The notes beneath the pieces are model-generated. The model saw only the letters and a list, made by a program, of their open reading frames with translations. It had not been told where the DNA came from and ran no database searches. The translations under genes were made by a program, and so were the position numbers. From Thiorhodovibrio litoralis (GTDB lineage Bacteria; Pseudomonadota; Gammaproteobacteria; Chromatiales; Chromatiaceae), in the NCBI RefSeq assembly GCF_033954455.1, contig NZ_CP121473.1, positions 3,210,501 to 3,274,500 of the forward strand: a stretch of DNA of 64,000 bases, written 5' to 3'. Below are positions 1,991 through 51,634 of the stretch, piece by piece. Positions within the stretch are counted from its first letter, which is position 1. Every line of letters starts with the position of its first letter.

Positions 1991-2122
1991 CGTGCTTGCC
2001 AGCTGAGCGTAATCACGATAATTGCGGGACCCATTTCCAAGCCATTTGAAGGACATGGAATGCGTGTGGGATCACGGGGGCCGTTACTGGCCGACAGCGG
2101 GAAGCCGGAATCGTGAACCACG

Positions 2123-2142
2123 CTCCCCCCCTGAGGGGGGAG
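2123..2142. other. Perfect hairpin downstream of primase gene
   Basis: CTCCCCCC, a CTGA loop and GGGGGGAG form an 8-bp stem 13 bases after the primase stop codon. There is no T-tract, so it is not a canonical intrinsic terminator. It may block read-through from inside the element or stabilise the transcript. The same hairpin is present in all four copies (near 6426, 42020 and 51503). Confidence 0.5.
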
Positions 2143-2155
2143 AGACGCAGCGGGT

Positions 2156-2965
2156 TCAGTTGCCTCTAGCGCTCTGGCGAATGGCGCGAGCGAGGGTGTA
2201 GCGGGCATAGCGCTCGGCATCGGCTCCGCGACGCGGGGACGCGCGCTCGAGCAAGCGTTGGTAGACCGTGGTCGGTGCAAGGCCGGCCTCAAGAGCGCCG
2301 CAGACCCAGCCCCATTCGCGGGCAGATTCGGACGGATCACCGGTGGATAAGCGCGCCCGTGGAGCGCAGTTGACGACCGGCGGCGGAGCCGGAGCCATCG
2401 TTGGCAAGGCCGGAGTTGGATCCCAGACGCGCTCCTGCGGGCTTGGTCGCCGAAGGACATTGACCCACTCCCCGCCACGCTTGGCATTCTTCATCCCGGC
2501 GAGCCGACCGAGGTGCTCACCGGAGACCGAGCCCGGATCGGCGCCAACGCGCGGGATCAGCCAACGCTGCACATCACAGCGCTGCGCCTCATCGAGCGCG
2601 CGGGTCAGCCGTAGCCACAGGTGGCAGCCCCCGAGCGTCGAAGTCTGCACCACCAGGGCCGCATAGTGCCGAGCGATGCGCTGCGCCATCGGCCGTGCGA
2701 CATCATCGAGAAACACCATTGGCCAGGGATAGCCGCGGGCTGGACGGATATAAATATCGGCCTGTTGGACATTGCGCGCTCTGGCCAGCCCCAACGGAAG
2801 CTGATCCAAAGAGCGATCATGGAACCACAGCATCGTCGCCTTGGCGGTGCGCACCGCCAAATCGGCACGCACGATGCCAGCGTCGTGCCATGCCTCAAGC
2901 ATCACGGCGGTGTGTCTTGCCGCTGTCATGGCCTGGTGCGGGCGCTCAGCGCTCAAGCGGCTCAT
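2156..2965 (-). CDS. Archaeo-eukaryotic-type primase (PrimPol), copy 1
   Basis: A 269-aa protein that should make primers and/or copy DNA. Motifs of the RepB-like archaeo-eukaryotic primase fold can be read in order: VFLDD at residues 84-88 (metal-binding Asp pair, motif I), SxxGGCHLWLR at about 109-119 (His115, motif II), Asp143 in GADPGS (motif III), and RLAGMKNAK at 154-162, which matches the R-L-x-G-x-x-N-x-K signature of this group. The C-terminal 70 residues are probably a small helical domain. The ATG overlaps the ATPase stop as TGATG, so translation is coupled. A primase is not a usual partner of a DDE transposase. In all nucleotide differences I found among the four copies this protein sequence is unchanged. 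Confidence 0.8.
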   Translation of the reverse strand: MSRLSAERPHQAMTAARHTAVMLEAWHDAGIVRADLAVRTAKATMLWFHDRSLDQLPLGLARARNVQQADIYIRPARGYPWPMVFLDDVARPMAQRIARHYAALVVQTSTLGGCHLWLRLTRALDEAQRCDVQRWLIPRVGADPGSVSGEHLGRLAGMKNAKRGGEWVNVLRRPSPQERVWDPTPALPTMAPAPPPVVNCAPRARLSTGDPSESAREWGWVCGALEAGLAPTTVYQRLLERASPRRGADAERYARYTLARAIRQSARGN

Positions 2966-3816
2966 CAGGCGCCCGCCCTGGCACTCGGGCGTTGGCGGGC
3001 GTTGCCCGCCGCTGAACCAAACACCTCAAGGTAGAGTTGTTCATCGAGCTGCGCGCGTTCGAGCCGAGCAGCCTGCGCCAGCAATTCTGCCGCCATGGTC
3101 GTGAGCACGCGATAATTGCCCAACGCATGCTCAGCGAGCGTCTTCATCAGCCCTGCGCTCATCAGACTCGCATTGCCGGCACTGTGTTGTAAATGCTCCA
3201 GGCAGGCGACCAGCGCCTCGCGACTGGCATACTCCATACTCAGGCGCGTACGGATACGACTGCCCAGCGGCAGCAACTCCTCACGGCGCAGCTTGGTCGC
3301 CAGGCGGCCATCGCCGGCCAGGATCACGCTCAACAACGTGCGCGAATCGAACTGCATGGAGGTCAGCAGACGCAGCTCATTGAGCACCGTCGGATGCATC
3401 TCCTGCGCCTCGTCGATGAGCAACACCGGGCGCAACAGCGTCGTCTCCAGATGCGCCAGCCAGCGCTCGCGCAGGATCTTGAAGCCACCCCAGCGGTTAT
3501 GGGGCTTGAGGTCAACGGCGAACAGATCGCCCATCTCGCGGTAGAAGTCCGCCACCTTCGAGCTGGGATGCGTGAGCGCCCCAACGCTGATATCGGGCAG
3601 CTGGCGCAGACGCTCATCGAGCAGGCGCAGTACCGCACTCTTGCCGGTACCCGGATCACCTTGAATGAGCGCAAAACCGCCTTCGCGGATCAGGCTCTGC
3701 TCGATGCGCCAGCAAAACTGCTCCACCGGCGCGCTGCGATGCAGTGCCGCCGTCGGCAGCTCCGGGGAGAACGGATTGAACTTCAGTCCATAGAGGGCCA
3801 GCAGGGTCTTGTTCAT
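2965..3816 (-). CDS. ExeA/TnsC-like AAA ATPase, copy 1
   Basis: A 283-aa ATPase of the AAA_22/ExeA type found as the regulator partner of DDE transposases (TnsC, TniB, MuB and IstB play this role in their systems). Walker A is GDPGTGKS at residues 53-60 and Walker B is LLIDEAQE at 132-139. The LYGLKFNPFSPE start is typical of ExeA-like proteins. It probably binds target DNA and activates the transposase; this is inferred from family and position. The start overlaps the transposase stop by 4 bases (ATGA), and the stop overlaps the primase start. The protein appears identical in all four copies. Confidence 0.85.
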   Translation of the reverse strand: MNKTLLALYGLKFNPFSPELPTAALHRSAPVEQFCWRIEQSLIREGGFALIQGDPGTGKSAVLRLLDERLRQLPDISVGALTHPSSKVADFYREMGDLFAVDLKPHNRWGGFKILRERWLAHLETTLLRPVLLIDEAQEMHPTVLNELRLLTSMQFDSRTLLSVILAGDGRLATKLRREELLPLGSRIRTRLSMEYASREALVACLEHLQHSAGNASLMSAGLMKTLAEHALGNYRVLTTMAAELLAQAARLERAQLDEQLYLEVFGSAAGNARQRPSARAGA

Positions 3817-5270
3817 CGACTGGATTCCAGGTCATCGTGTTTTGGCAGATAGGCCGGCGGCAGACCGGTGGCGGCATACTCGGCGAGCAAGTCGCGCAGC
3901 AACGGTGGCAGCGTCGTGGCGCGTTGTGATGGCGGTGGCGGTGCGCCGGCGGGCTCAAGGCGCCGACGCTGCCCGGAGGCATTGGCGGCTTTATCGAGGG
4001 GATAGAGGCGGCAGAGGATGGCGCCCGAGTGGGGATCAACCACGTCCACAGCACTCAGATCCCAGCGGGCATAAGCGATATGCAGTTGCTCAAGGTGACG
4101 CAAGCGCGCCGGCACCTCGAAGCGCTTGCCCGCCAGGCTGAGCGTCCCATCGCTGCGGCGCTGACGGCGTTGGACGCGACAACGAAAAGCGCCGCGGACC
4201 TGCTCGCTGTCCGGACAGGGGCGCCCCACGTTGGGCGCATCGAGAAGACGCGCAAGCGGCGTGGCGGCAGTCTCGCTGTGGACCTTGCGGTGGTACTCCT
4301 GCTCCACCCACGCCTGAGTGAGGGTGTTGAGCTGAGGCAGACTCAGCTCCGCGATGTCCTTGAGCATCGCCATCAGGCGGCCTTCCAGCGTGGCCCAGAA
4401 GCGCTCCTGCTTGGCGTTCTGATACGGGCTGTACGGCAGGGTCGGCTCATGGAGGATGCCCAGGGCGTGCAATCCGGCGGTGAACTCCTCGGCCTGCATT
4501 GCCGCGCCGTTATCGCTCATCAAGGCGCGCGGCAGCCCGCGCTTGTGCAACGCCTGCCCCAGGCCATGGACCAAGGTCTCGGTGGTCTCATCGAGGTACC
4601 ACTGCAGATGGCAGATCAGGCGGGAGTGATCGTCAATGACCGCCAGCAGCAGGGGCTTGACCCAGACGCCACCCCGGGTGAGGACTTTGCGCGAGCCATG
4701 ATGAAAGTCCAGATGCCACAAGGCATGGACATACTGGGCTTCATAGCTGCGCACCTCGCAGGCCTCCAGGCGCCGCGCGGCCTGTTCAGCGCCCGGCGTC
4801 TTGCGCGCCGGGACACGCCGGCGGTGCAAGCCCGCGCGCTTCATGAAGCGGCGCACGGTGGCATAGGAGGGCAGCGGCCCCAGGGTCTGATCGCCCGCGC
4901 ACAAGGCGGCGAGGTTGTCGTAATGCAGCTGCACCGTCCAACCGGGGTAGTCGCGGTACTGGGCTTGCACCGCATCCATCAGGCGCGGACTCAGCGCGCG
5001 CTGCTCCCCGGCATCGCTGCGCCGGCGCGGGCGCAGTGCCGCCACCGGGTCTTGGGCATCGCGTGCGAGGTAATACCAACGCTCCAAGGTGCCAAAGCTA
5101 AAACTGACCGCCCGCCCAGTCACCGGATGGCGCCATGACTTGGCCGCTAGCGCCTTCAGCCGCGCGCCCAGCGCGTTCGCCGGCGCAGGATCAGCCAATA
5201 AAGGACCAATAATGGCAAAGCGCAACCGCGCCCAACCATCGGGATCACCGAGGCCGTTGTCATCGGACAT
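3813..5270 (-). CDS. DDE transposase, rve integrase core, copy 1
   Basis: A 485-aa transposase. The N-terminal 170 residues are basic and helical (DNA binding). The RNase-H-like core follows: Asp188 in HLDFHHGS, Asp253 in MSDNGAA and Glu289 in NAKQERFW, giving a D-x35-E spacing between the last two. The C-terminal part resembles the Mu-type beta-barrel region (RHLEQLHIAYARWD, DPHSGAILCRLYPLD). This is the catalytic protein that cuts and joins the element ends. Copy 1 differs from the others at K195 (Asn elsewhere) and in QVRGAF (QVRAAF elsewhere). It is separated from the upstream Cys-rich/HTH gene by 93 bp. Confidence 0.9.
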   Translation of the reverse strand: MSDDNGLGDPDGWARLRFAIIGPLLADPAPANALGARLKALAAKSWRHPVTGRAVSFSFGTLERWYYLARDAQDPVAALRPRRRSDAGEQRALSPRLMDAVQAQYRDYPGWTVQLHYDNLAALCAGDQTLGPLPSYATVRRFMKRAGLHRRRVPARKTPGAEQAARRLEACEVRSYEAQYVHALWHLDFHHGSRKVLTRGGVWVKPLLLAVIDDHSRLICHLQWYLDETTETLVHGLGQALHKRGLPRALMSDNGAAMQAEEFTAGLHALGILHEPTLPYSPYQNAKQERFWATLEGRLMAMLKDIAELSLPQLNTLTQAWVEQEYHRKVHSETAATPLARLLDAPNVGRPCPDSEQVRGAFRCRVQRRQRRSDGTLSLAGKRFEVPARLRHLEQLHIAYARWDLSAVDVVDPHSGAILCRLYPLDKAANASGQRRRLEPAGAPPPPSQRATTLPPLLRDLLAEYAATGLPPAYLPKHDDLESSR

Positions 5271-5363
5271 TCGTCTTCACCTCCCAGTTGTTTCACACAT
5301 CACCGGGAGTCTAGAAGGCGCCGCCCAGCGGCGCGATGAGGTCTTCTGCGGGTTGGCGTTGCC

Positions 5364-5933
5364 CTACAGCGAGCCTGTCGCTGTCGTGCTCGGGGCGATC
5401 AATATCAGCAGTTGCACGACGCGCTCGGACAACGCTTTTGCGCTCAATTTTTCCAGCAGGGATCCTGGCAGGTGCTCGGTGGCGATCGGCGGCATCAACA
5501 GACCAGCCAAGGATCGAAAGCAGCGGGTTTGCACAAACTGCTCACGCCACCAGTGCTGCCACCGCCGCAGGGTTTGGACGGTGACACCGAGCGTCTTGAT
5601 CAAGCGCTGGCGACGCGATGCGCTCAGCCCGCAATGCAGGGCGGAAATCAGCACGACGATGACCCCGAGATAGACCTTGCGGCCCAGAAACCGAACGGAA
5701 GGCGGGGTGCTGCGCCGCCGGCACCCGTCCGCGGCACAGCAGAAACTCAGACGGCTCTGGTAGCTCTCATCCAAGACGCCACGCACAACACCTCGGGGCT
5801 TACGCGGATAACGGGCGCTGTGCAACGCACCACCGCAGTCACAGCCGCCCGCGCGGACTTCCTCGGCAATCGACTCGTCGATCCGGGTGAGCAGGTGGTA
5901 AAAGTTCGTGTCGGCAAGAAAGGCGTGACACAC
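5364..5933 (-). CDS. Cys-rich/HTH protein, first gene of transposon, copy 1
   Basis: A 189-aa protein of unknown function. Cys31, Cys33, Cys65, Cys66 and Cys71 could form a zinc ribbon. Residues about 105-135 (RRQRLIKTLGVTVQTLRRWQ) read as a helix-turn-helix of transposase type. There is no catalytic motif, so it is more likely a DNA-binding accessory factor: target or end recognition, comparable in place though not in sequence to TniQ/TnsD. I infer that role from position and the two DNA-binding features. The start is GTG, preceded by AGGAG at 9 bases. The protein is identical in all four copies. Confidence 0.6.
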   Translation of the reverse strand: MCHAFLADTNFYHLLTRIDESIAEEVRAGGCDCGGALHSARYPRKPRGVVRGVLDESYQSRLSFCCAADGCRRRSTPPSVRFLGRKVYLGVIVVLISALHCGLSASRRQRLIKTLGVTVQTLRRWQHWWREQFVQTRCFRSLAGLLMPPIATEHLPGSLLEKLSAKALSERVVQLLILIAPSTTATGSL

Positions 5934-6079
5934 TGGGACTGTCTCCTGGTTTTTGGCGAAATTCGGAGACAGCCCTCTCGGGCAACTTGCGTCAAGTTGT
6001 TTGAGGGGGTTTTTTGTTTTCCCTCACTGAATTTGCTCAGAATCGCGGCCGATTCCCGCAAATAGTCTGCTCAGGCTCA
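5934..6079 (-). promoter_or_regulatory. Leader of transposon operon with hairpin covering the RBS
   Basis: In the minus-strand transcript, CTGTCTCC (complement of 5965-5972) can pair with GGAGACAG (complement of 5939-5946). The second arm overlaps the AGGAG ribosome-binding site of the first gene, so the site may be hidden in an 8-bp stem. A second palindrome, AACTTGCGTCAAGTT (5984-5998), lies upstream and could be an operator. The arrangement is the same in all four copies. No clear -10/-35 pair was identified. Confidence 0.5.
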
Positions 6080-6121
6080 GCCAGCCAAGCCAAAGCGCAG
6101 CGCAAGCCGGGACGCTGACCA

Positions 6122-6306
6122 TTATCCCCCAAAGACGAGCATGCCTCGGCCAGGACGTAAACCGAAAGCGATGCTTCCAAAACCAACACCGGCAACCCCA
6201 GCACCCAGCACGTCGGATAGAAACCCTGCTCCCACATAGGACAACAATTCAATCAAACGACCTGGAAGCCAGATAAGTGTCACGCCGATGACGAAGACCG
6301 CCAGAT
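6122..6306 (-). pseudogene. DUF3592-type protein, C-terminal part (split by transposon)
   Basis: This is the 3' end of the gene whose earlier parts lie at 10383-10970 and 11134-11384. Removing transposon copy 2 and one GCCAGAT repeat joins HETVPWYSY to LAVFVIGVTLIWLPGRLIEL in frame. The tail then runs through two hydrophobic stretches to GRGMLVFGG and a stop at 6122. This proves the insertion point and the 7-bp duplication independently of the element comparison. The C-terminal membrane segments are missing from the protein now made. Confidence 0.75.
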
Positions 6307-6458
6307 TGAGCGTAATCACGATAATTGCGGGACCCATTTCCAAGCCATTTGAAGGACATGGAATGCGTGTGGGATCACGGGGGCCGTTACTGGCCGACAG
6401 CGGGAAGCCGGAATCGTGAACCACGCTCCCCCCCTGAGGGGGGAGAGACGCAGCGGGT

Positions 6459-7268
6459 TCAGTTGCCTCTAGCGCTCTGGCGAATGGCGCGAGCGAGGGT
6501 GTAGCGGGCATAGCGCTCGGCATCGGCTCCGCGACGCGGGGACGCGCGCTCGAGCAAGCGCTGGTAGACCGTGGTCGGTGCAAGGCCCGCCTCAAGAGCG
6601 CCGCAGACCCAGCCCCATTCGCGGGCGGATTCGGACGGATCCCCGGTGGATAAGCGCGCCCGTGGAGCGCAGTTGACGACCGGCGGCGGAGCCGGAGCCA
6701 TCGTTGGCAAGGCCGGAGTTGGATCCCAGACGCGCTCCTGCGGGCTTGGTCGCCGAAGGACATTGACCCACTCCCCGCCACGCTTGGCATTCTTCATCCC
6801 GGCGAGCCGACCGAGGTGCTCACCGGAGACCGAGCCCGGATCGGCGCCAACGCGCGGGATCAGCCAACGCTGCACATCACAGCGCTGCGCCTCATCGAGC
6901 GCGCGGGTCAGCCGTAGCCACAGGTGGCAGCCCCCGAGCGTCGAAGTCTGCACCACCAGGGCCGCATAGTGCCGAGCGATGCGCTGCGCCATCGGCCGTG
7001 CGACATCATCGAGAAACACCATTGGCCAGGGATAGCCGCGGGCTGGACGGATATAAATATCGGCCTGTTGGACATTGCGCGCTCTGGCCAGCCCCAACGG
7101 AAGCTGATCCAAAGAGCGATCATGGAACCACAGCATCGTCGCCTTGGCGGTGCGCACCGCCAAATCGGCACGCACGATGCCAGCGTCGTGCCATGCCTCA
7201 AGCATCACGGCGGTGTGTCTTGCCGCTGTCATGGCCTGGTGCGGGCGCTCAGCGCTCAAGCGGCTCAT
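6459..7268 (-). CDS. Archaeo-eukaryotic-type primase (PrimPol), copy 2
   Basis: Protein identical by eye to copy 1 (269 aa, all motifs intact). The DNA differs at several silent sites near the 3' end (for example around 6560, 6588 and 6627-6641). These variants are shared with copy 4 but not with copies 1 and 3. Confidence 0.8.
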   Translation of the reverse strand: MSRLSAERPHQAMTAARHTAVMLEAWHDAGIVRADLAVRTAKATMLWFHDRSLDQLPLGLARARNVQQADIYIRPARGYPWPMVFLDDVARPMAQRIARHYAALVVQTSTLGGCHLWLRLTRALDEAQRCDVQRWLIPRVGADPGSVSGEHLGRLAGMKNAKRGGEWVNVLRRPSPQERVWDPTPALPTMAPAPPPVVNCAPRARLSTGDPSESAREWGWVCGALEAGLAPTTVYQRLLERASPRRGADAERYARYTLARAIRQSARGN

Positions 7269-8119
7269 CAGGCGCCCGCCCTGGCACTCGGGCGTTGGCG
7301 GGCGTTGCCCGCCGCTGAACCAAACACCTCAAGGTAGAGTTGTTCATCGAGCTGCGCGCGTTCGAGCCGAGCAGCCTGCGCCAGCAATTCTGCCGCCATG
7401 GTCGTGAGCACGCGATAATTGCCCAACGCATGCTCAGCGAGCGTCTTCATCAGCCCTGCGCTCATCAGACTCGCATTGCCGGCACTGTGTTGTAAATGCT
7501 CCAGGCAGGCGACCAGCGCCTCGCGACTGGCATACTCCATACTCAGGCGCGTACGGATACGACTGCCCAGCGGCAGCAACTCCTCACGGCGCAGCTTGGT
7601 CGCCAGGCGGCCATCGCCGGCCAGGATCACGCTCAACAACGTGCGCGAATCGAACTGCATGGAGGTCAGCAGACGCAGCTCATTGAGCACCGTCGGATGC
7701 ATCTCCTGCGCCTCGTCGATGAGCAACACCGGGCGCAACAGCGTCGTCTCCAGATGCGCCAGCCAGCGCTCGCGCAGGATCTTGAAGCCACCCCAGCGGT
7801 TATGGGGCTTGAGGTCAACGGCGAACAGATCGCCCATCTCGCGGTAGAAGTCCGCCACCTTCGAGCTGGGATGCGTGAGCGCCCCAACGCTGATATCGGG
7901 CAGCTGGCGCAGACGCTCATCGAGCAGGCGCAGTACCGCACTCTTGCCGGTACCCGGATCACCTTGAATGAGCGCAAAACCGCCTTCGCGGATCAGGCTC
8001 TGCTCGATGCGCCAGCAAAACTGCTCCACCGGCGCGCTGCGATGCAGTGCCGCCGTCGGCAGCTCCGGGGAGAACGGATTGAACTTCAGTCCATAGAGGG
8101 CCAGCAGGGTCTTGTTCAT
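7268..8119 (-). CDS. ExeA/TnsC-like AAA ATPase, copy 2
   Basis: Same 283-aa ATPase as in copy 1, with Walker A and B intact. It overlaps the transposase gene by 4 bases and the primase gene by 1. Confidence 0.85.
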   Translation of the reverse strand: MNKTLLALYGLKFNPFSPELPTAALHRSAPVEQFCWRIEQSLIREGGFALIQGDPGTGKSAVLRLLDERLRQLPDISVGALTHPSSKVADFYREMGDLFAVDLKPHNRWGGFKILRERWLAHLETTLLRPVLLIDEAQEMHPTVLNELRLLTSMQFDSRTLLSVILAGDGRLATKLRREELLPLGSRIRTRLSMEYASREALVACLEHLQHSAGNASLMSAGLMKTLAEHALGNYRVLTTMAAELLAQAARLERAQLDEQLYLEVFGSAAGNARQRPSARAGA

Positions 8120-9573
8120 CGACTGGATTCCAGGTCATCGTGTTTTGGCAGATAGGCCGGCGGCAGACCGGTGGCGGCATACTCGGCGAGCAAGTCGCGC
8201 AGCAACGGTGGCAGCGTCGTGGCGCGTTGTGATGGCGGTGGCGGTGCGCCGGCGGGCTCAAGGCGCCGACGCTGCCCGGAGGCATTGGCGGCTTTATCGA
8301 GGGGATAGAGGCGGCAGAGGATGGCGCCCGAGTGGGGATCAACCACGTCCACAGCACTCAGATCCCAGCGGGCATAAGCGATATGCAGTTGCTCAAGGTG
8401 ACGCAAGCGCGCCGGCACCTCGAAGCGCTTGCCCGCCAGGCTGAGCGTCCCATCGCTGCGGCGCTGACGGCGTTGGACGCGACAACGAAAAGCGGCGCGG
8501 ACCTGCTCGCTGTCCGGACAGGGGCGCCCCACGTTGGGCGCATCGAGAAGACGCGCAAGCGGCGTGGCGGCGGTCTCACTGTGGACCTTGCGGTGGTACT
8601 CCTGCTCCACCCACGCCTGAGTGAGGGTGTTGAGCCGCTGCAGGCTCAGCTCCTCCAGCCCCTTAAGCATCGCCATCAGGCGGCCTTCCAGCGTGGCCCA
8701 GAAGCGCTCCTGCTTGGCGTTCTGATACGGGCTGTACGGCAGGGTCGGCTCGTGGAGGATGCCCAGCGCATGCAATCCGGCGGTGAATTCCTCGGCCTGC
8801 ATTGCCGCGCCGTTATCGCTCATCAGGGCGCGCGGCAGCCCGCGCTTGTGCAACGCCTGTCCCAGACCATGCACCAAGGTCTCGGTGGTCTCATCGAGGT
8901 ACCACTGCAGATGGCAGATCAGGCGCGAGTGATCGTCGATGACCGCCAGCAGCAGGGGCTTGACCCAGACGCCACCCCGGGTGAGGACGTTGCGCGAGCC
9001 ATGATGAAAGTCCAGATGCCACAAGGCATGGACATACTGGGCTTCATAGCTGCGCACCTCGCAGGCCTCCAGGCGCCGCGCGGCCTGCTCGGCCCCGGGT
9101 GTCTTGCGCGCCGGGACACGCCGGCGGTGCAGGCCCGCGCGCTTCATGAAGCGGCGCACGGTGGCATAGGAGGGCAGCGGCCCCAGGGTTTCATCGCCCG
9201 CGCACAAGGCGGCGAGGTTGTCGTAATGCAGCTGCACCGTCCAACCGGGGTAGTCGCGGTATTGCGCCTGTACGGCCTCCATCAGGCGCGGGCTCAGCGC
9301 GCGCTGCTCCCCGGCATCGCTGCGCCGGCGCGGGCGCAGTGCGGTCACCGGGTCTTGGGCATCGCGTGCGAGGTAATACCAGCGCTCCAAGGTCCCAAAG
9401 CTAAAACTGACCGCCCGCCCAGTCACCGGATGACGCCATGACTTGGCCGCTAGCGCCTTCAGCCGCGCGCCCAGCGCGTTCGCCGGCGCAGGATCAGCCA
9501 ATAAAGGACCAATAATGGCAAAGCGCAACCGCGCCCAACCATCGGGATCACCGAGGCCGTTGTCATCGGACAT
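8116..9573 (-). CDS. DDE transposase, copy 2 (divergent allele)
   Basis: 485 aa with the DDE residues intact (Asp188, Asp253, Glu289). Differences from the other copies include VTALRPR (VAALRPR), LMEAVQ (LMDAVQ), GDETLG (GDQTLG) and KGLEELSLQRLN (KDIAELSLPQLN) at about residues 306-317. The dense changes in that last stretch look like a segment from another lineage of the element rather than random drift. Confidence 0.9.
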   Translation of the reverse strand: MSDDNGLGDPDGWARLRFAIIGPLLADPAPANALGARLKALAAKSWRHPVTGRAVSFSFGTLERWYYLARDAQDPVTALRPRRRSDAGEQRALSPRLMEAVQAQYRDYPGWTVQLHYDNLAALCAGDETLGPLPSYATVRRFMKRAGLHRRRVPARKTPGAEQAARRLEACEVRSYEAQYVHALWHLDFHHGSRNVLTRGGVWVKPLLLAVIDDHSRLICHLQWYLDETTETLVHGLGQALHKRGLPRALMSDNGAAMQAEEFTAGLHALGILHEPTLPYSPYQNAKQERFWATLEGRLMAMLKGLEELSLQRLNTLTQAWVEQEYHRKVHSETAATPLARLLDAPNVGRPCPDSEQVRAAFRCRVQRRQRRSDGTLSLAGKRFEVPARLRHLEQLHIAYARWDLSAVDVVDPHSGAILCRLYPLDKAANASGQRRRLEPAGAPPPPSQRATTLPPLLRDLLAEYAATGLPPAYLPKHDDLESSR

Positions 9574-9666
9574 TCGTCTTCACCTCCCAGTTGTTTCACA
9601 CATCACCGGGAGTCTAGAAGGCGCCGCCCAGCGGCGCGATGAGGTCTTCTGCGGGTTGGCGTTGCC

Positions 9667-10236
9667 CTACAGCGAGCCTGTCGCTGTCGTGCTCGGGGCG
9701 ATCAATATCAGCAGTTGCACGACGCGCTCGGACAACGCTTTTGCGCTCAATTTTTCCAGCAGGGATCCTGGCAGGTGCTCGGTGGCGATCGGCGGCATCA
9801 ACAGACCAGCCAAGGATCGAAAGCAGCGGGTTTGCACAAACTGCTCACGCCACCAGTGCTGCCACCGCCGCAGGGTTTGGACGGTGACACCGAGCGTCTT
9901 GATCAAGCGCTGGCGACGCGATGCGCTCAGCCCGCAATGCAGGGCGGAAATCAGCACGACGATGACCCCGAGATAGACCTTGCGGCCCAGAAACCGAACG
10001 GAAGGCGGGGTGCTGCGCCGCCGGCACCCGTCCGCGGCACAGCAGAAACTCAGACGGCTCTGGTAGCTCTCATCCAAGACGCCACGCACAACACCTCGGG
10101 GCTTACGCGGATAACGGGCGCTGTGCAACGCACCACCGCAGTCACAGCCGCCCGCGCGGACTTCCTCGGCAATCGACTCGTCGATCCGGGTGAGCAGGTG
10201 GTAAAAGTTCGTGTCGGCAAGAAAGGCGTGACACAC
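9667..10236 (-). CDS. Cys-rich/HTH protein, copy 2
   Basis: Same 189-aa protein as in copy 1, with the GTG start, RBS-covering hairpin and all cysteines conserved. Confidence 0.6.
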   Translation of the reverse strand: MCHAFLADTNFYHLLTRIDESIAEEVRAGGCDCGGALHSARYPRKPRGVVRGVLDESYQSRLSFCCAADGCRRRSTPPSVRFLGRKVYLGVIVVLISALHCGLSASRRQRLIKTLGVTVQTLRRWQHWWREQFVQTRCFRSLAGLLMPPIATEHLPGSLLEKLSAKALSERVVQLLILIAPSTTATGSL

Positions 10237-10382
10237 TGGGACTGTCTCCTGGTTTTTGGCGAAATTCGGAGACAGCCCTCTCGGGCAACTTGCGTCAAGT
10301 TGTTTGAGGGGGTTTTTTGTTTTCCCTCACTGAATTTGCTCAGAATCGCGGCCGATTCCCGCAAATAGTCTGCTCAGGCTCA

Positions 10383-10970: not shown

Positions 10971-11133
10971 TAGGGAGTTCAATTTGAGCTGTTTCACGCA
11001 CATTGTAAGCTGGCAACTACCGTGCGGGCCTATGTTCTCAAGCTGCTGTTTTAGATGATTTAATTTTGTCTTCTAGGTGAAGGGAAGTTGCGTGAGCCAG
11101 AACATGGGAAATCTGGCCAAATTGAACTACCTA
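10971..11133. mobile_element. 163-bp MITE, family B, copy 1
   Basis: Imperfect terminal inverted repeats TAGGGAGTTCAATTTGAGC and TAGGTAGTTCAATTTGGCC bound a 163-bp segment with no gene. It is flanked by the 9-bp duplication GTGTAGGCC (10962-10970 and 11134-11142). It splits a DUF3592 gene between AAAYT and LLQGS, and the frame is restored on removal. An inverted second copy is at 12124-14656. No transposase with these ends is in the window. Confidence 0.85.
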
Positions 11134-11384: not shown

Positions 11385-11527
11385 CGCGCGCCTGTCGCGC
11401 TTGAGGTGACAGGTGATTATCTTCCAAAGTTGCAGGCTCTTTTAGCGCGTTTCCACGATGTTGCAGCTCTATACCGCGTGGGAATCCCGGTTAAACCGGT
11501 TCGGGAAGTATTGTGAGCGGAGCGACG

Positions 11528-30922: not shown

Positions 30923-30933
30923 GCGCCGAGGGA

Positions 30934-41812: not shown

Positions 41813-41836
41813 CGATGGGGTTACCTCTTGTGGAGG

Positions 41837-41900: not shown

Positions 41901-42052
41901 TGAGCGTAATCACGATAATTGCGGGACCCATTTCCAAGCCATTTGAAGGACATGGAATGCGTGTGGGATCACGGGGGCCGTTACTGGCCGACAGCGGGAA
42001 GCCGGAATCGTGAACCACGCTCCCCCCCTGAGGGGGGAGAGACGCAGCGGGT

Positions 42053-42862
42053 TCAGTTGCCTCTAGCGCTCTGGCGAATGGCGCGAGCGAGGGTGTAGCG
42101 GGCATAGCGCTCGGCATCGGCTCCGCGACGCGGGGACGCGCGCTCGAGCAAGCGTTGGTAGACCGTGGTCGGTGCAAGGCCGGCCTCAAGAGCGCCGCAG
42201 ACCCAGCCCCATTCGCGGGCAGATTCGGACGGATCACCGGTGGATAAGCGCGCCCGTGGAGCGCAGTTGACGACCGGCGGCGGAGCCGGAGCCATCGTTG
42301 GCAAGGCCGGAGTTGGATCCCAGACGCGCTCCTGCGGGCTTGGTCGCCGAAGGACATTGACCCACTCCCCGCCACGCTTGGCATTCTTCATCCCGGCGAG
42401 CCGACCGAGGTGCTCACCGGAGACCGAGCCCGGATCGGCGCCAACGCGCGGGATCAGCCAACGCTGCACATCACAGCGCTGCGCCTCATCGAGCGCGCGG
42501 GTCAGCCGTAGCCACAGGTGGCAGCCCCCGAGCGTCGAAGTCTGCACCACCAGGGCCGCATAGTGCCGAGCGATGCGCTGCGCCATCGGCCGTGCGACAT
42601 CATCGAGAAACACCATTGGCCAGGGATAGCCGCGGGCTGGACGGATATAAATATCGGCCTGTTGGACATTGCGCGCTCTGGCCAGCCCCAACGGAAGCTG
42701 ATCCAAAGAGCGATCATGGAACCACAGCATCGTCGCCTTGGCGGTGCGCACCGCCAAATCGGCACGCACGATGCCAGCGTCGTGCCATGCCTCAAGCATC
42801 ACGGCGGTGTGTCTTGCCGCTGTCATGGCCTGGTGCGGGCGCTCAGCGCTCAAGCGGCTCAT
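42053..42862 (-). CDS. Archaeo-eukaryotic-type primase (PrimPol), copy 3
   Basis: Same 269-aa protein. The silent-site pattern at the 3' end follows copy 1. Confidence 0.8.
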   Translation of the reverse strand: MSRLSAERPHQAMTAARHTAVMLEAWHDAGIVRADLAVRTAKATMLWFHDRSLDQLPLGLARARNVQQADIYIRPARGYPWPMVFLDDVARPMAQRIARHYAALVVQTSTLGGCHLWLRLTRALDEAQRCDVQRWLIPRVGADPGSVSGEHLGRLAGMKNAKRGGEWVNVLRRPSPQERVWDPTPALPTMAPAPPPVVNCAPRARLSTGDPSESAREWGWVCGALEAGLAPTTVYQRLLERASPRRGADAERYARYTLARAIRQSARGN

Positions 42863-43713
42863 CAGGCGCCCGCCCTGGCACTCGGGCGTTGGCGGGCGTT
42901 GCCCGCCGCTGAACCAAACACCTCAAGGTAGAGTTGTTCATCGAGCTGCGCGCGTTCGAGCCGAGCAGCCTGCGCCAGCAATTCTGCCGCCATGGTCGTG
43001 AGCACGCGATAATTGCCCAACGCATGCTCAGCGAGCGTCTTCATCAGCCCTGCGCTCATCAGACTCGCATTGCCGGCACTGTGTTGTAAATGCTCCAGGC
43101 AGGCGACCAGCGCCTCGCGACTGGCATACTCCATACTCAGGCGCGTACGGATACGACTGCCCAGCGGCAGCAACTCCTCACGGCGCAGCTTGGTCGCCAG
43201 GCGGCCATCGCCGGCCAGGATCACGCTCAACAACGTGCGCGAATCGAACTGCATGGAGGTCAGCAGACGCAGCTCATTGAGCACCGTCGGATGCATCTCC
43301 TGCGCCTCGTCGATGAGCAACACCGGGCGCAACAGCGTCGTCTCCAGATGCGCCAGCCAGCGCTCGCGCAGGATCTTGAAGCCACCCCAGCGGTTATGGG
43401 GCTTGAGGTCAACGGCGAACAGATCGCCCATCTCGCGGTAGAAGTCCGCCACCTTCGAGCTGGGATGCGTGAGCGCCCCAACGCTGATATCGGGCAGCTG
43501 GCGCAGACGCTCATCGAGCAGGCGCAGTACCGCACTCTTGCCGGTACCCGGATCACCTTGAATGAGCGCAAAACCGCCTTCGCGGATCAGGCTCTGCTCG
43601 ATGCGCCAGCAAAACTGCTCCACCGGCGCGCTGCGATGCAGTGCCGCCGTCGGCAGCTCCGGGGAGAACGGATTGAACTTCAGTCCATAGAGGGCCAGCA
43701 GGGTCTTGTTCAT
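42862..43713 (-). CDS. ExeA/TnsC-like AAA ATPase, copy 3
   Basis: Same 283-aa ATPase, intact, with overlapping gene ends as in copy 1. Confidence 0.85.
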   Translation of the reverse strand: MNKTLLALYGLKFNPFSPELPTAALHRSAPVEQFCWRIEQSLIREGGFALIQGDPGTGKSAVLRLLDERLRQLPDISVGALTHPSSKVADFYREMGDLFAVDLKPHNRWGGFKILRERWLAHLETTLLRPVLLIDEAQEMHPTVLNELRLLTSMQFDSRTLLSVILAGDGRLATKLRREELLPLGSRIRTRLSMEYASREALVACLEHLQHSAGNASLMSAGLMKTLAEHALGNYRVLTTMAAELLAQAARLERAQLDEQLYLEVFGSAAGNARQRPSARAGA

Positions 43714-45167
43714 CGACTGGATTCCAGGTCATCGTGTTTTGGCAGATAGGCCGGCGGCAGACCGGTGGCGGCATACTCGGCGAGCAAGTCGCGCAGCAAC
43801 GGTGGCAGCGTCGTGGCGCGTTGTGATGGCGGTGGCGGTGCGCCGGCGGGCTCAAGGCGCCGACGCTGCCCGGAGGCATTGGCGGCTTTATCGAGGGGAT
43901 AGAGGCGGCAGAGGATGGCGCCCGAGTGGGGATCAACCACGTCCACAGCACTCAGATCCCAGCGGGCATAAGCGATATGCAGTTGCTCAAGGTGACGCAA
44001 GCGCGCCGGCACCTCGAAGCGCTTGCCCGCCAGGCTGAGCGTCCCATCGCTGCGGCGCTGACGGCGTTGGACGCGACAACGAAAAGCGGCGCGGACCTGC
44101 TCGCTGTCCGGACAGGGGCGCCCCACGTTGGGCGCATCGAGAAGACGCGCAAGCGGCGTGGCGGCGGTCTCACTGTGGACCTTGCGGTGGTACTCCTGCT
44201 CCACCCACGCCTGAGTGAGGGTGTTGAGCTGAGGCAGACTCAGCTCCGCGATGTCCTTGAGCATCGCCATCAGGCGGCCTTCCAGCGTGGCCCAGAAGCG
44301 CTCCTGCTTGGCGTTCTGATACGGGCTGTACGGCAGGGTCGGCTCATGGAGGATGCCCAGGGCGTGCAATCCGGCGGTGAACTCCTCGGCCTGCATTGCC
44401 GCGCCGTTATCGCTCATCAAGGCGCGCGGCAGCCCGCGCTTGTGCAACGCCTGCCCCAGGCCATGGACCAAGGTCTCGGTGGTCTCATCGAGGTACCACT
44501 GCAGATGGCAGATCAGGCGGGAGTGATCGTCAATGACCGCCAGCAGCAGGGGCTTGACCCAGACGCCACCCCGGGTGAGGACGTTGCGCGAGCCATGATG
44601 AAAGTCCAGATGCCACAAGGCATGGACATACTGGGCTTCATAGCTGCGCACCTCGCAGGCCTCCAGGCGCCGCGCGGCCTGTTCAGCGCCCGGCGTCTTG
44701 CGCGCCGGGACACGCCGGCGGTGCAAGCCCGCGCGCTTCATGAAGCGGCGCACGGTGGCATAGGAGGGCAGCGGCCCCAGGGTCTGATCGCCCGCGCACA
44801 AGGCGGCGAGGTTGTCGTAATGCAGCTGCACCGTCCAACCGGGGTAGTCGCGGTACTGGGCTTGCACCGCATCCATCAGGCGCGGACTCAGCGCGCGCTG
44901 CTCCCCGGCATCGCTGCGCCGGCGCGGGCGCAGTGCCGCCACCGGGTCTTGGGCATCGCGTGCGAGGTAATACCAACGCTCCAAGGTGCCAAAGCTAAAA
45001 CTGACCGCCCGCCCAGTCACCGGATGGCGCCATGACTTGGCCGCTAGCGCCTTCAGCCGCGCGCCCAGCGCGTTCGCCGGCGCAGGATCAGCCAATAAAG
45101 GACCAATAATGGCAAAGCGCAACCGCGCCCAACCATCGGGATCACCGAGGCCGTTGTCATCGGACAT
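43710..45167 (-). CDS. DDE transposase, copy 3
   Basis: 485 aa, identical to copy 4. Compared with copy 1 it has Asn195 and QVRAAF. Asp188, Asp253 and Glu289 are intact. Confidence 0.9.
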   Translation of the reverse strand: MSDDNGLGDPDGWARLRFAIIGPLLADPAPANALGARLKALAAKSWRHPVTGRAVSFSFGTLERWYYLARDAQDPVAALRPRRRSDAGEQRALSPRLMDAVQAQYRDYPGWTVQLHYDNLAALCAGDQTLGPLPSYATVRRFMKRAGLHRRRVPARKTPGAEQAARRLEACEVRSYEAQYVHALWHLDFHHGSRNVLTRGGVWVKPLLLAVIDDHSRLICHLQWYLDETTETLVHGLGQALHKRGLPRALMSDNGAAMQAEEFTAGLHALGILHEPTLPYSPYQNAKQERFWATLEGRLMAMLKDIAELSLPQLNTLTQAWVEQEYHRKVHSETAATPLARLLDAPNVGRPCPDSEQVRAAFRCRVQRRQRRSDGTLSLAGKRFEVPARLRHLEQLHIAYARWDLSAVDVVDPHSGAILCRLYPLDKAANASGQRRRLEPAGAPPPPSQRATTLPPLLRDLLAEYAATGLPPAYLPKHDDLESSR

Positions 45168-45260
45168 TCGTCTTCACCTCCCAGTTGTTTCACACATCAC
45201 CGGGAGTCTAGAAGGCGCCGCCCAGCGGCGCGATGAGGTCTTCTGCGGGTTGGCGTTGCC

Positions 45261-45830
45261 CTACAGCGAGCCTGTCGCTGTCGTGCTCGGGGCGATCAAT
45301 ATCAGCAGTTGCACGACGCGCTCGGACAACGCTTTTGCGCTCAATTTTTCCAGCAGGGATCCTGGCAGGTGCTCGGTGGCGATCGGCGGCATCAACAGAC
45401 CAGCCAAGGATCGAAAGCAGCGGGTTTGCACAAACTGCTCACGCCACCAGTGCTGCCACCGCCGCAGGGTTTGGACGGTGACACCGAGCGTCTTGATCAA
45501 GCGCTGGCGACGCGATGCGCTCAGCCCGCAATGCAGGGCGGAAATCAGCACGACGATGACCCCGAGATAGACCTTGCGGCCCAGAAACCGAACGGAAGGC
45601 GGGGTGCTGCGCCGCCGGCACCCGTCCGCGGCACAGCAGAAACTCAGACGGCTCTGGTAGCTCTCATCCAAGACGCCACGCACAACACCTCGGGGCTTAC
45701 GCGGATAACGGGCGCTGTGCAACGCACCACCGCAGTCACAGCCGCCCGCGCGGACTTCCTCGGCAATCGACTCGTCGATCCGGGTGAGCAGGTGGTAAAA
45801 GTTCGTGTCGGCAAGAAAGGCGTGACACAC
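45261..45830 (-). CDS. Cys-rich/HTH protein, copy 3
   Basis: Same 189-aa protein with GTG start and RBS hairpin. Confidence 0.6.
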   Translation of the reverse strand: MCHAFLADTNFYHLLTRIDESIAEEVRAGGCDCGGALHSARYPRKPRGVVRGVLDESYQSRLSFCCAADGCRRRSTPPSVRFLGRKVYLGVIVVLISALHCGLSASRRQRLIKTLGVTVQTLRRWQHWWREQFVQTRCFRSLAGLLMPPIATEHLPGSLLEKLSAKALSERVVQLLILIAPSTTATGSL

Positions 45831-45976
45831 TGGGACTGTCTCCTGGTTTTTGGCGAAATTCGGAGACAGCCCTCTCGGGCAACTTGCGTCAAGTTGTTTG
45901 AGGGGGTTTTTTGTTTTCCCTCACTGAATTTGCTCAGAATCGCGGCCGATTCCCGCAAATAGTCTGCTCAGGCTCA

Positions 45977-47558: not shown

Positions 47559-47704
47559 TGAGCCTGAGCAGACTATTTGCGGGAATCGGCCGCGATTCTG
47601 AGCAAATTCAGTGAGGGAAAACAAAAAACCCCCTCAAACAACTTGACGCAAGTTGCCCGAGAGGGCTGTCTCCGAATTTCGCCAAAAACCAGGAGACAGT
47701 CCCA

Positions 47705-48274
47705 GTGTGTCACGCCTTTCTTGCCGACACGAACTTTTACCACCTGCTCACCCGGATCGACGAGTCGATTGCCGAGGAAGTCCGCGCGGGCGGCTGTGAC
47801 TGCGGTGGTGCGTTGCACAGCGCCCGTTATCCGCGTAAGCCCCGAGGTGTTGTGCGTGGCGTCTTGGATGAGAGCTACCAGAGCCGTCTGAGTTTCTGCT
47901 GTGCCGCGGACGGGTGCCGGCGGCGCAGCACCCCGCCTTCCGTTCGGTTTCTGGGCCGCAAGGTCTATCTCGGGGTCATCGTCGTGCTGATTTCCGCCCT
48001 GCATTGCGGGCTGAGCGCATCGCGTCGCCAGCGCTTGATCAAGACGCTCGGTGTCACCGTCCAAACCCTGCGGCGGTGGCAGCACTGGTGGCGTGAGCAG
48101 TTTGTGCAAACCCGCTGCTTTCGATCCTTGGCTGGTCTGTTGATGCCGCCGATCGCCACCGAGCACCTGCCAGGATCCCTGCTGGAAAAATTGAGCGCAA
48201 AAGCGTTGTCCGAGCGCGTCGTGCAACTGCTGATATTGATCGCCCCGAGCACGACAGCGACAGGCTCGCTGTAG
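47705..48274 (+). CDS. Cys-rich/HTH protein, copy 4
   Basis: Same 189-aa protein. The GTG start at 47705 and leader hairpin are intact. Confidence 0.6.
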   Translation: MCHAFLADTNFYHLLTRIDESIAEEVRAGGCDCGGALHSARYPRKPRGVVRGVLDESYQSRLSFCCAADGCRRRSTPPSVRFLGRKVYLGVIVVLISALHCGLSASRRQRLIKTLGVTVQTLRRWQHWWREQFVQTRCFRSLAGLLMPPIATEHLPGSLLEKLSAKALSERVVQLLILIAPSTTATGSL

Positions 48275-48367
48275 GGCAACGCCAACCCGCAGAAGACCTC
48301 ATCGCGCCGCTGGGCGGCGCCTTCTAGACTCCCGGTGATGTGTGAAACAACTGGGAGGTGAAGACGA

Positions 48368-49825
48368 ATGTCCGATGACAACGGCCTCGGTGATCCCGAT
48401 GGTTGGGCGCGGTTGCGCTTTGCCATTATTGGTCCTTTATTGGCTGATCCTGCGCCGGCGAACGCGCTGGGCGCGCGGCTGAAGGCGCTAGCGGCCAAGT
48501 CATGGCGCCATCCGGTGACTGGGCGGGCGGTCAGTTTTAGCTTTGGCACCTTGGAGCGTTGGTATTACCTCGCACGCGATGCCCAAGACCCGGTGGCGGC
48601 ACTGCGCCCGCGCCGGCGCAGCGATGCCGGGGAGCAGCGCGCGCTGAGTCCGCGCCTGATGGATGCGGTGCAAGCCCAGTACCGCGACTACCCCGGTTGG
48701 ACGGTGCAGCTGCATTACGACAACCTCGCCGCCTTGTGCGCGGGCGATCAGACCCTGGGGCCGCTGCCCTCCTATGCCACCGTGCGCCGCTTCATGAAGC
48801 GCGCGGGCTTGCACCGCCGGCGTGTCCCGGCGCGCAAGACGCCGGGCGCTGAACAGGCCGCGCGGCGCCTGGAGGCCTGCGAGGTGCGCAGCTATGAAGC
48901 CCAGTATGTCCATGCCTTGTGGCATCTGGACTTTCATCATGGCTCGCGCAACGTCCTCACCCGGGGTGGCGTCTGGGTCAAGCCCCTGCTGCTGGCGGTC
49001 ATTGACGATCACTCCCGCCTGATCTGCCATCTGCAGTGGTACCTCGATGAGACCACCGAGACCTTGGTCCATGGCCTGGGGCAGGCGTTGCACAAGCGCG
49101 GGCTGCCGCGCGCCTTGATGAGCGATAACGGCGCGGCAATGCAGGCCGAGGAGTTCACCGCCGGATTGCACGCCCTGGGCATCCTCCATGAGCCGACCCT
49201 GCCGTACAGCCCGTATCAGAACGCCAAGCAGGAGCGCTTCTGGGCCACGCTGGAAGGCCGCCTGATGGCGATGCTCAAGGACATCGCGGAGCTGAGTCTG
49301 CCTCAGCTCAACACCCTCACTCAGGCGTGGGTGGAGCAGGAGTACCACCGCAAGGTCCACAGTGAGACCGCCGCCACGCCGCTTGCGCGTCTTCTCGATG
49401 CGCCCAACGTGGGGCGCCCCTGTCCGGACAGCGAGCAGGTCCGCGCCGCTTTTCGTTGTCGCGTCCAACGCCGTCAGCGCCGCAGCGATGGGACGCTCAG
49501 CCTGGCGGGCAAGCGCTTCGAGGTGCCGGCGCGCTTGCGTCACCTTGAGCAACTGCATATCGCTTATGCCCGCTGGGATCTGAGTGCTGTGGACGTGGTT
49601 GATCCCCACTCGGGCGCCATCCTCTGCCGCCTCTATCCCCTCGATAAAGCCGCCAATGCCTCCGGGCAGCGTCGGCGCCTTGAGCCCGCCGGCGCACCGC
49701 CACCGCCATCACAACGCGCCACGACGCTGCCACCGTTGCTGCGCGACTTGCTCGCCGAGTATGCCGCCACCGGTCTGCCGCCGGCCTATCTGCCAAAACA
49801 CGATGACCTGGAATCCAGTCGATGA
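48368..49825 (+). CDS. DDE transposase, copy 4
   Basis: 485 aa, same as copy 3; DDE residues intact. Confidence 0.9.
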   Translation: MSDDNGLGDPDGWARLRFAIIGPLLADPAPANALGARLKALAAKSWRHPVTGRAVSFSFGTLERWYYLARDAQDPVAALRPRRRSDAGEQRALSPRLMDAVQAQYRDYPGWTVQLHYDNLAALCAGDQTLGPLPSYATVRRFMKRAGLHRRRVPARKTPGAEQAARRLEACEVRSYEAQYVHALWHLDFHHGSRNVLTRGGVWVKPLLLAVIDDHSRLICHLQWYLDETTETLVHGLGQALHKRGLPRALMSDNGAAMQAEEFTAGLHALGILHEPTLPYSPYQNAKQERFWATLEGRLMAMLKDIAELSLPQLNTLTQAWVEQEYHRKVHSETAATPLARLLDAPNVGRPCPDSEQVRAAFRCRVQRRQRRSDGTLSLAGKRFEVPARLRHLEQLHIAYARWDLSAVDVVDPHSGAILCRLYPLDKAANASGQRRRLEPAGAPPPPSQRATTLPPLLRDLLAEYAATGLPPAYLPKHDDLESSR

Positions 49826-50673
49826 ACAAGACCCTGCTGGCCCTCTATGGACTGAAGTTCAATCCGTTCTCCCCGGAGCTGCCGACGGCGGCACTGCATC
49901 GCAGCGCGCCGGTGGAGCAGTTTTGCTGGCGCATCGAGCAGAGCCTGATCCGCGAAGGCGGTTTTGCGCTCATTCAAGGTGATCCGGGTACCGGCAAGAG
50001 TGCGGTACTGCGCCTGCTCGATGAGCGTCTGCGCCAGCTGCCCGATATCAGCGTTGGGGCGCTCACGCATCCCAGCTCGAAGGTGGCGGACTTCTACCGC
50101 GAGATGGGCGATCTGTTCGCCGTTGACCTCAAGCCCCATAACCGCTGGGGTGGCTTCAAGATCCTGCGCGAGCGCTGGCTGGCGCATCTGGAGACGACGC
50201 TGTTGCGCCCGGTGTTGCTCATCGACGAGGCGCAGGAGATGCATCCGACGGTGCTCAATGAGCTGCGTCTGCTGACCTCCATGCAGTTCGATTCGCGCAC
50301 GTTGTTGAGCGTGATCCTGGCCGGCGATGGCCGCCTGGCGACCAAGCTGCGCCGTGAGGAGTTGCTGCCGCTGGGCAGTCGTATCCGTACGCGCCTGAGT
50401 ATGGAGTATGCCAGTCGCGAGGCGCTGGTCGCCTGCCTGGAGCATTTACAACACAGTGCCGGCAATGCGAGTCTGATGAGCGCAGGGCTGATGAAGACGC
50501 TCGCTGAGCATGCGTTGGGCAATTATCGCGTGCTCACGACCATGGCGGCAGAATTGCTGGCGCAGGCTGCTCGGCTCGAACGCGCGCAGCTCGATGAACA
50601 ACTCTACCTTGAGGTGTTTGGTTCAGCGGCGGGCAACGCCCGCCAACGCCCGAGTGCCAGGGCGGGCGCCTGA
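49822..50673 (+). CDS. ExeA/TnsC-like AAA ATPase, copy 4
   Basis: Same 283-aa ATPase. ATGA overlap with the transposase and TGATG overlap with the primase. Confidence 0.85.
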   Translation: MNKTLLALYGLKFNPFSPELPTAALHRSAPVEQFCWRIEQSLIREGGFALIQGDPGTGKSAVLRLLDERLRQLPDISVGALTHPSSKVADFYREMGDLFAVDLKPHNRWGGFKILRERWLAHLETTLLRPVLLIDEAQEMHPTVLNELRLLTSMQFDSRTLLSVILAGDGRLATKLRREELLPLGSRIRTRLSMEYASREALVACLEHLQHSAGNASLMSAGLMKTLAEHALGNYRVLTTMAAELLAQAARLERAQLDEQLYLEVFGSAAGNARQRPSARAGA

Positions 50674-51482
50674 TGAGCCGCTTGAGCGCTGAGCGCCCGC
50701 ACCAGGCCATGACAGCGGCAAGACACACCGCCGTGATGCTTGAGGCATGGCACGACGCTGGCATCGTGCGTGCCGATTTGGCGGTGCGCACCGCCAAGGC
50801 GACGATGCTGTGGTTCCATGATCGCTCTTTGGATCAGCTTCCGTTGGGGCTGGCCAGAGCGCGCAATGTCCAACAGGCCGATATTTATATCCGTCCAGCC
50901 CGCGGCTATCCCTGGCCAATGGTGTTTCTCGATGATGTCGCACGGCCGATGGCGCAGCGCATCGCTCGGCACTATGCGGCCCTGGTGGTGCAGACTTCGA
51001 CGCTCGGGGGCTGCCACCTGTGGCTACGGCTGACCCGCGCGCTCGATGAGGCGCAGCGCTGTGATGTGCAGCGTTGGCTGATCCCGCGCGTTGGCGCCGA
51101 TCCGGGCTCGGTCTCCGGTGAGCACCTCGGTCGGCTCGCCGGGATGAAGAATGCCAAGCGTGGCGGGGAGTGGGTCAATGTCCTTCGGCGACCAAGCCCG
51201 CAGGAGCGCGTCTGGGATCCAACTCCGGCCTTGCCAACGATGGCTCCGGCTCCGCCGCCAGTCGTCAACTGCGCTCCACGGGCGCGCTTATCCACCGGGG
51301 ATCCGTCCGAATCCGCCCGCGAATGGGGCTGGGTCTGCGGCGCTCTTGAGGCGGGCCTTGCACCGACCACGGTCTACCAGCGCTTGCTCGAGCGCGCGTC
51401 CCCGCGTCGCGGAGCCGATGCCGAGCGCTATGCCCGCTACACCCTCGCTCGCGCCATTCGCCAGAGCGCTAGAGGCAACTGA
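50673..51482 (+). CDS. Archaeo-eukaryotic-type primase (PrimPol), copy 4
   Basis: Same 269-aa protein. Silent variants at about 51300-51385 are those of copy 2, and one extra silent change (CCA for CCG, near 51260) is unique to this copy. Confidence 0.8.
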   Translation: MSRLSAERPHQAMTAARHTAVMLEAWHDAGIVRADLAVRTAKATMLWFHDRSLDQLPLGLARARNVQQADIYIRPARGYPWPMVFLDDVARPMAQRIARHYAALVVQTSTLGGCHLWLRLTRALDEAQRCDVQRWLIPRVGADPGSVSGEHLGRLAGMKNAKRGGEWVNVLRRPSPQERVWDPTPALPTMAPAPPPVVNCAPRARLSTGDPSESAREWGWVCGALEAGLAPTTVYQRLLERASPRRGADAERYARYTLARAIRQSARGN

Positions 51483-51634
51483 ACCCGCTGCGTCTCTCCC
51501 CCCTCAGGGGGGGAGCGTGGTTCACGATTCCGGCTTCCCGCTGTCGGCCAGTAACGGCCCCCGTGATCCCACACGCATTCCATGTCCTTCAAATGGCTTG
51601 GAAATGGGTCCCGCAATTATCGTGATTACGCTCA

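Follow-up and report, generated by a model that had tools for sequence, protein, structure and literature searches.

A stretch of 64,000 nucleotides from the genome of Thiorhodovibrio litoralis (contig NZ_CP121473.1, positions 3,210,501 to 3,274,500; hereafter the window) contains four blocks of 4076 bp, exactly where an original prediction made from the sequence alone had placed them. Each block is a copy of one transposon, and the gene content claimed for it was confirmed in every copy: a Cys-rich/helix-turn-helix (HTH) protein, a DDE transposase, an AAA ATPase and a RepB'-type primase. Behind the primase gene lies a short stretch that resembles the ssi sites of the IncQ-type plasmid RSF1010. 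The best explanation for this arrangement is that the element is a Tn6049-type transposon whose slot for a small fourth gene holds a priming module of the IncQ-plasmid type. The features are listed below, with positions counted from the first letter of the window.

2004..6079, minus strand: copy 1, with its genes on the minus strand and the 6-bp target repeat GCCAGC flanking both sides
6307..10382, minus strand: copy 2, with a 7-bp target repeat
41901..45976, minus strand: copy 3, without a target repeat
47559..51634, plus strand: copy 4, inverted, without a clear target repeat
5364..5933, minus strand: gene 1 of copy 1, Cys-rich/HTH protein of 189 amino acids (aa) (copies 2-4: 9667-10236 minus, 45261-45830 minus, 47705-48274 plus)
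3813..5270, minus strand: gene 2 of copy 1, DDE transposase of 485 aa with D188/D253/E289 (copies 2-4: 8116-9573 minus, 43710-45167 minus, 48368-49825 plus)
2965..3816, minus strand: gene 3 of copy 1, AAA_22 ATPase of 283 aa (copies 2-4: 7268-8119 minus, 42862-43713 minus, 49822-50673 plus)
2156..2965, minus strand: gene 4 of copy 1, RepB'-type primase of 269 aa (copies 2-4: 6459-7268 minus, 42053-42862 minus, 50673-51482 plus)
2115..2146, minus strand: ssi-like site of copy 1, with GTCTCT tail, C6/G6 hairpin, AGC, GTG (2121-2119) and GTTC (copies 2-4: 6418-6449 minus, 42012-42043 minus, 51492-51523 plus)
6054..6079: terminal repeat at the left end of copy 1, on the side of gene 1; its sequence in gene orientation is TGAGCCTGAGCAGACTATTTGCGGGA
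2004..2029: terminal repeat at the right end of copy 1, on the side of the primase gene, TGAGCGTAATCACGATAATTGCGGGA

The assignment of gene 4, whose start codon overlaps the stop codon of the ATPase gene (TGATG), is supported by predicted fold and by catalytic residues. The motifs VFLDD, GGCH and RLAGMKNAK are present as originally quoted, and phmmer connects the protein to RSF1010 RepB' (PDB 3H25, E 2e-9; 3H20, E 5e-9). A structural model without the primase fold had been named in advance as evidence against the assignment; the AlphaFold model (mean pLDDT 76.4, 7 rows in the alignment) has the RepB' fold, with 3H25 as the closest Foldseek match (E 7.6e-10, TM 0.71 by target and 0.52 by query). 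D87, D88 and D143 align to D77, D78 and D134, named as the catalytic residues of RepB' (PMC4434180), and are invariant in 7 aligned primases. Motif II carries His115 in place of the Gln of the RepB' family, and His is the residue described for other related primase families (PMC5862659). The score against Pfam RepB_primase falls just under the cut-off (22.6 of 24.3 bits), which the related primases of loci L021, L022 and L139 pass. One identical primase protein is encoded by 24 of the 26 uninterrupted copies in the genome. Comparison with the copy of a sister species gave a ratio of nonsynonymous to synonymous substitution rates (dN/dS) of 0.22, which shows purifying selection on the primase; the values for genes 1-3 were 0.18, 0.11 and 0.08, the first 371 codons being used for the sister-species transposase.

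The window site reads gtctct-CCCCCC-TCAG-GGGGGG-AGC-GTG-GTTC, lies 11 bp past the primase stop, has its GTG 115 bp from the right tip of the element and is present in all 27 copies in the genome. In the published description of RSF1010 ssiA (PMC4434180), a tail of 6 nt precedes a hairpin that spans nt 7-27, and the primer is proposed to start at the GTG of nt 31-33. In the RSF1010-type plasmid L144, part of the interval from mobC to the next annotated gene has the sequence cctttc-[CCCCTACCCGAAGGGTGGGGG]-cgc-GTG, and we infer this stretch to be ssiA because the spacing of tail, hairpin and GTG matches the published layout exactly. A loose pattern (C run, 2-14 nt, G run, 1-4 nt, GTG) matched twice in the whole 8688-bp plasmid, both times within this interval, in the oriV region. 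The same search of the window returned one site per copy and none in the 47,696 bp outside the copies; simulated DNA gave about 2 matches per 100 kb. With the CTCT tail and a GTGGTTC-like end added, the extended pattern was found in the window copies, both sister-species copies, three of four IS21-type loci and once in G726, a genome of Acidobacteriota; it had no match in 2 Mb of simulated DNA or in the 12 stretches of 371-800 bp that follow the ATPase gene in Tn6049-type loci lacking a primase. Among 340 genomes of the class to which T. litoralis belongs, the extended pattern with GTGGTTC had 34 matches in the window genome and a single match in each of 5 others; its reversed control had none in the window genome and likewise single matches in 5 others. 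The extended pattern also matched at least 120 stretches of IMG/VR, which were taken as chance. In two integrated plasmid-like elements, a loose site lies inside the primase gene itself (L130 6432-6449; L138 5169-5151), where it encodes a PP.G.VV-type stretch between two domains.

The first three genes belong to a known family. The original prediction knew of no named element with this gene set, which did not hold: the element shares three of its four genes, in the same order, with Tn6049 of Cupriavidus metallidurans, the transposase and ATPase being about 60% identical (tblastn against plasmids). Tn6049 is described as a 3.5-kb transposon with 12 copies in C. metallidurans CH34 (PMC2864759), and its transposition module as one that had resisted categorization (PMC6210171). 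As in Tn6049, which is also present on Pseudomonas aeruginosa pHS87a, the Cys-rich/HTH, transposase and ATPase genes are homologous and in the same order, and the ends are short and inverted (TGTGC in Tn6049, TGAGC here) with short target repeats, given as 4 bp for Tn6049 (PMC4739549). The fourth gene differs. In Tn6049 it encodes a small protein of 71-90 aa (the family's small gene ranges over about 60-115 aa) and not a primase, and no ssi-like site follows the ATPase; here the primase stands in its place. The description of a family with the same four genes and ends, which would have argued against novelty, was therefore found for three genes only, and the element is a variant of the Tn6049-type transposons rather than a plain member because the primase occupies the fourth slot. 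What is known is the first three genes; what is new is the C-rich/G-rich hairpin with its GTG about 11 bp behind a primase gene, in the layout of the RSF1010 ssi sites. In addition, the uncategorised Tn6049 module gains a wider family.

The residues D188, D253 and E289, proposed as the catalytic triad of the transposase, are invariant among 9 aligned transposases, and the gene 1 protein has 22 invariant columns among 12 family members, with the Cys and HTH positions conserved. In more distant plasmid relatives, the gene-1 slot holds a protein matching Pfam DUF6431, and a direct search gave no link between the two proteins. Membership in IS21 was rejected (NCBIfam IS21, 44.6 of 160 bits; no IstA/IstB homologues among the element genes), as was membership in IS481 (NCBIfam IS481, 135.7 of 224 bits; four genes in place of one). 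A Tn6049-type transposase (E 1e-60) is present in 7 of 369 genomes of the class, including that of the window; these genome surveys scored the best few candidates per genome, so that misses are possible.

The content of the fourth slot was compared across the family. All 10 loci from six other genomes of the class have a protein of 62-113 aa behind the ATPase, and these proteins are mutually alike by eye. At E 0.01, tblastn found in these 10 loci neither the primase nor Tn6049's own small protein, and the slot may be variable because the latter gave no match there. The small proteins were also considered as primase remnants, an idea that was rejected: three have no Pfam match, and the primase search gave nothing in the 10 loci. 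One of two sister species has the primase in the slot (two full copies, with a primase about 80% identical and a site 12 bp behind it), and the other has none. In both copies of that species, the transposase frame is cut at 396 aa alike (L063 3101-4291; L064 3355-4545), and this truncation is therefore either older than the separation of the copies or shared by conversion. Outside them, the species has a 62-residue fragment resembling the C-terminal part of the primase (L065 5307-5492).

Outside the genus, the nearest primases (50-55% identical) are encoded on the Holophagaceae contigs L021-L024, where they follow an IS21-type transposase, an ATPase and a gene with a ParB HTH domain (gene families tested in L021 and L023, two of the four). 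Like the window element, the elements there have a transposase-ATPase operon with the same primase behind it, and also a site of matching layout, which the loose search places about 100 bp behind the primase in all four loci, on the opposite strand. The differences lie in the transposition proteins (IstA and IstB of L021 have no significant similarity to the window transposase and ATPase), in the added ParB-HTH gene and in the imperfect inverted ends of 45-50 bp, which enclose the primase; their inverted-end scores are 58 in L021 (shuffle maximum 37) and 49 in L024 (40), only the right end being comparable in L022 and L023. In G726, from the same class as L021, a divergent element of the Tn6049 type has the full set of four genes (identity to window genes 1-4: 38, 53, 49 and 42%) and is adjoined by three consecutive integrase-like frames of tyrosine-recombinase type by eye (L139 851-4097). 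More distant primases are located in plasmid-like replication or mobilisation contexts, partly annotated and partly named by eye. No relative of the primase was found in 50,697 phage records or among the 60 pattern-matching stretches returned by an IMG/VR scan.

In the primase tree, which left out L136 (a relaxase fusion) and L140 (no match), the primases of the window genus and of the IS21-type elements group together (99/99), and that of G726 is unplaced among long-branched plasmid primases. In the transposase tree, from which L143 (a broken transposase piece) and the near-copies L068 and L093 were left out, the window lineage and G726 stand apart, and two changes of slot 4 are needed. A single origin of the primase within the Tn6049 family was rejected, as one change was enough in 0% of 200 bootstrap transposase trees. 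Because the transposase tree needs two changes and the G726 primase is unplaced, the primase would either have entered the Tn6049 family twice or have been lost often. Judged by sequence, primase and site occur together in more than one element lineage, which suggests movement of a plasmid replication module from one transposon to another, unrelated one. This module consists of two small parts, one gene and one 40-nt site.

In our judgement, the chances are about even that transposons of the DDE/ATPase type acquired the IncQ-type priming module of primase and ssi more than once, and that it probably primes a single-stranded or circular transposition intermediate. The primase would recognise the hairpin in single-stranded form and start a primer at or near the GTG, and a host polymerase would extend this primer toward the left end and thus copy almost all of the element. 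The transposase of replicative pathways is described as only nicking and joining, with host replication completing the intermediate and turning a figure-eight into a double-stranded circle, so that replicative transposition is thought to pass its intermediates to host replication (PMC7780238). The likeliest substrate would be such a single-stranded or circular intermediate (a figure-eight or circle, or a strand-transfer product), which other elements presumably leave to host replication proteins. As the window site is oriented, the new strand would start near the right tip and run to the left end; the IS21-type site would point outward. A circle would fit best because the site strand is opposite in the IS21-type elements, and only a circle lets both orientations copy the element. 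We infer every step beyond the presence of a primase plus a site. The findings suggest that some transposons bring their own means to begin copying themselves, and, if true, this would be a bacterial case of a transposon controlling the start of its own DNA synthesis. Slightly short of an even chance is our estimate for the wider claim that ATPase-assisted DDE transposons of at least two transposase types, in two phyla, form a class in which the element's own primase and cognate ssi, and not the host, prime its intermediate.

Several observations weigh against this reading. The primase-less relative Tn6049 multiplies, and its 12 copies show that the core reaction can proceed without a primase. 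The link between replication and transposition put forward in the original prediction is supported by the ssi-like site beside the primase gene; an action of the primase in transposition is hypothetical. The extended pattern was drawn after the sites had been seen, and the site of G726 fails the loose search and lies 448 bp behind the primase, in an element for which the right end could not be fixed. Outside the 27 copies, the genome has 13 matches to the loose pattern with GTGG (28 rows for its reversed control) and 7 of the 34 extended sites. Two of these, when read, proved to be an IS110-family element (L182, L190; genome positions about 1469025 and 2405879) with the ssi-like site CTCTCCCCGAAGGGGCGGGCGTGGTTC in its noncoding part and no primase seen beside it within the stretch examined; this site may have arisen by chance in a single repeated family, or it may be served by the primase in trans. 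Folding z-scores do not separate the sites, those of RSF1010 included, as only the window site (-3.4) of five stands out, and fold energy was discarded as proof of a site. The strand of the site differs between Tn6049-type and IS21-type elements. Neither is the loose pattern exclusive to primase-bearing elements: the DUF6431-type relative L142, without a primase, has a match after its last gene, and L098 and L141 have one match each within the transposase.

Among the other explanations, a possible one, which we regard as distinctly less probable than the priming of an intermediate, is that the fourth slot is variable and carries primase and site as cargo, which would serve something other than transposition, such as complementary-strand synthesis on a plasmid that enters single-stranded, or interference with IncQ-type plasmids or integrative elements. 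The small protein in slot 4 of the 10 other loci, the mobility of Tn6049 with a likewise small protein, the possible variability of the slot and the plasmid-like contexts of distant primase homologues are all consistent with cargo. The overlap of the primase start with the ATPase stop argues against it, as does the fact that the primase also follows the ATPase in an IS21-type element that is unrelated, and both suggest that the primase is tied to the transposition operon; moreover, all full-length relatives found with at least 50% identity (in the sister species and L021-L024) are transposon-borne. A true episomal stage, in which the element, excised as a circle, would persist over a few generations as a mini-replicon by means of its primase and ssi, appears improbable: IncQ plasmids do replicate by priming at ssi sites (PMC4538821, PMC6925257), and the IS21-type relatives tested also carry the ParB-HTH gene, but the IncQ minimal replicon is described as requiring both repA and repC (PMC6925257), which are missing from the four genes, and the window element has no partition gene. 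It is also doubtful that the fourth protein is a DNA-binding factor no longer capable of priming and the hairpin a terminator or structural repeat, since the remote RepB' homology and the sub-threshold Pfam score are set against relatives above that cut-off, invariant catalytic aspartates, a motif II with His115, the match of hairpin and GTG to the RSF1010 sites and the lack of a T run past the hairpin on either strand, which led to its rejection as an intrinsic terminator.

The element was further compared with known systems. The RSF1010/IncQ module (RepB' with ssiA and ssiB) shares the predicted primase fold, the catalytic triad and a site in which a GTG follows a hairpin; it differs from the element, which has His in place of Gln in motif II, one site instead of two, and no RepA helicase or RepC initiator gene among its four genes (iterons were not searched for). 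The AAA ATPase belongs to the type that aids Mu, Tn7 and IS21. Mu, Tn7 and Tn5053/Tn402 share the combination of a DDE transposase with a dedicated ATPase, and the element proteins match the PHROG 'transposase' and 'DNA transposition protein' families, which we take to be Mu-like. Unlike these systems, the element shows no match to TnsA, TniQ or a resolvase among its four genes; Tn5053-type elements give 5-bp target repeats. Self-synthesizing transposons (casposons and Polintons) resemble the element in carrying an enzyme of DNA synthesis; they carry a DNA polymerase and another kind of integrase, whereas the window element is 4 kb long and has a primase only. No description of a transposon with a primase and an ssi site was found in the literature searched, with most subscription papers, ISfinder and TnCentral lying outside the search.

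The 5,466,623-bp genome has 27 copies of the element, 26 of them full (4076 or 4073 bp) and one split by a nested copy. The ends are inverted (TGAGC... at both sides), and all four reading frames are open in each of the 26 uninterrupted copies. Exact target repeats of 4-7 bp flank 24 of the 27 copies, with 6 bp as the commonest length (6 bp in 16 copies, 7 bp in 3, 5 bp in 2 and 4 bp in 3); in the remaining 3 the repeat is 3 bp or less. The nested copy duplicated bases 973-978 of its host copy on its two sides, and the intact copies therefore represent a natural empty site. Two of the three copies without target repeats are in the window (41901-45976 and 47559-51634) and one is elsewhere; because these repeats are missing, recombination between copies and rearrangement around them are suggested. 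Copies 1-3 of the window have the same orientation and differ pairwise by 48, 4 and 44 mismatches, and the fourth is the same element inverted, as its ends are the reverse complement and the match is full-length. An inversion documented by matching target repeats of copies 3 and 4 was considered and dropped, as no match was found when the rows were compared by eye. Among 20 copies of 4076 bp (the six 4073-bp copies and the split copy being left out, the latter from all copy comparisons), variation is concentrated in two genes, those for the transposase (55 variable sites, 37.8 per kb) and for the ATPase (23.5 per kb), and is low in the primase gene (8.6 per kb) and the right end; the changes are clustered in a way that resembles conversion involving a divergent relative.

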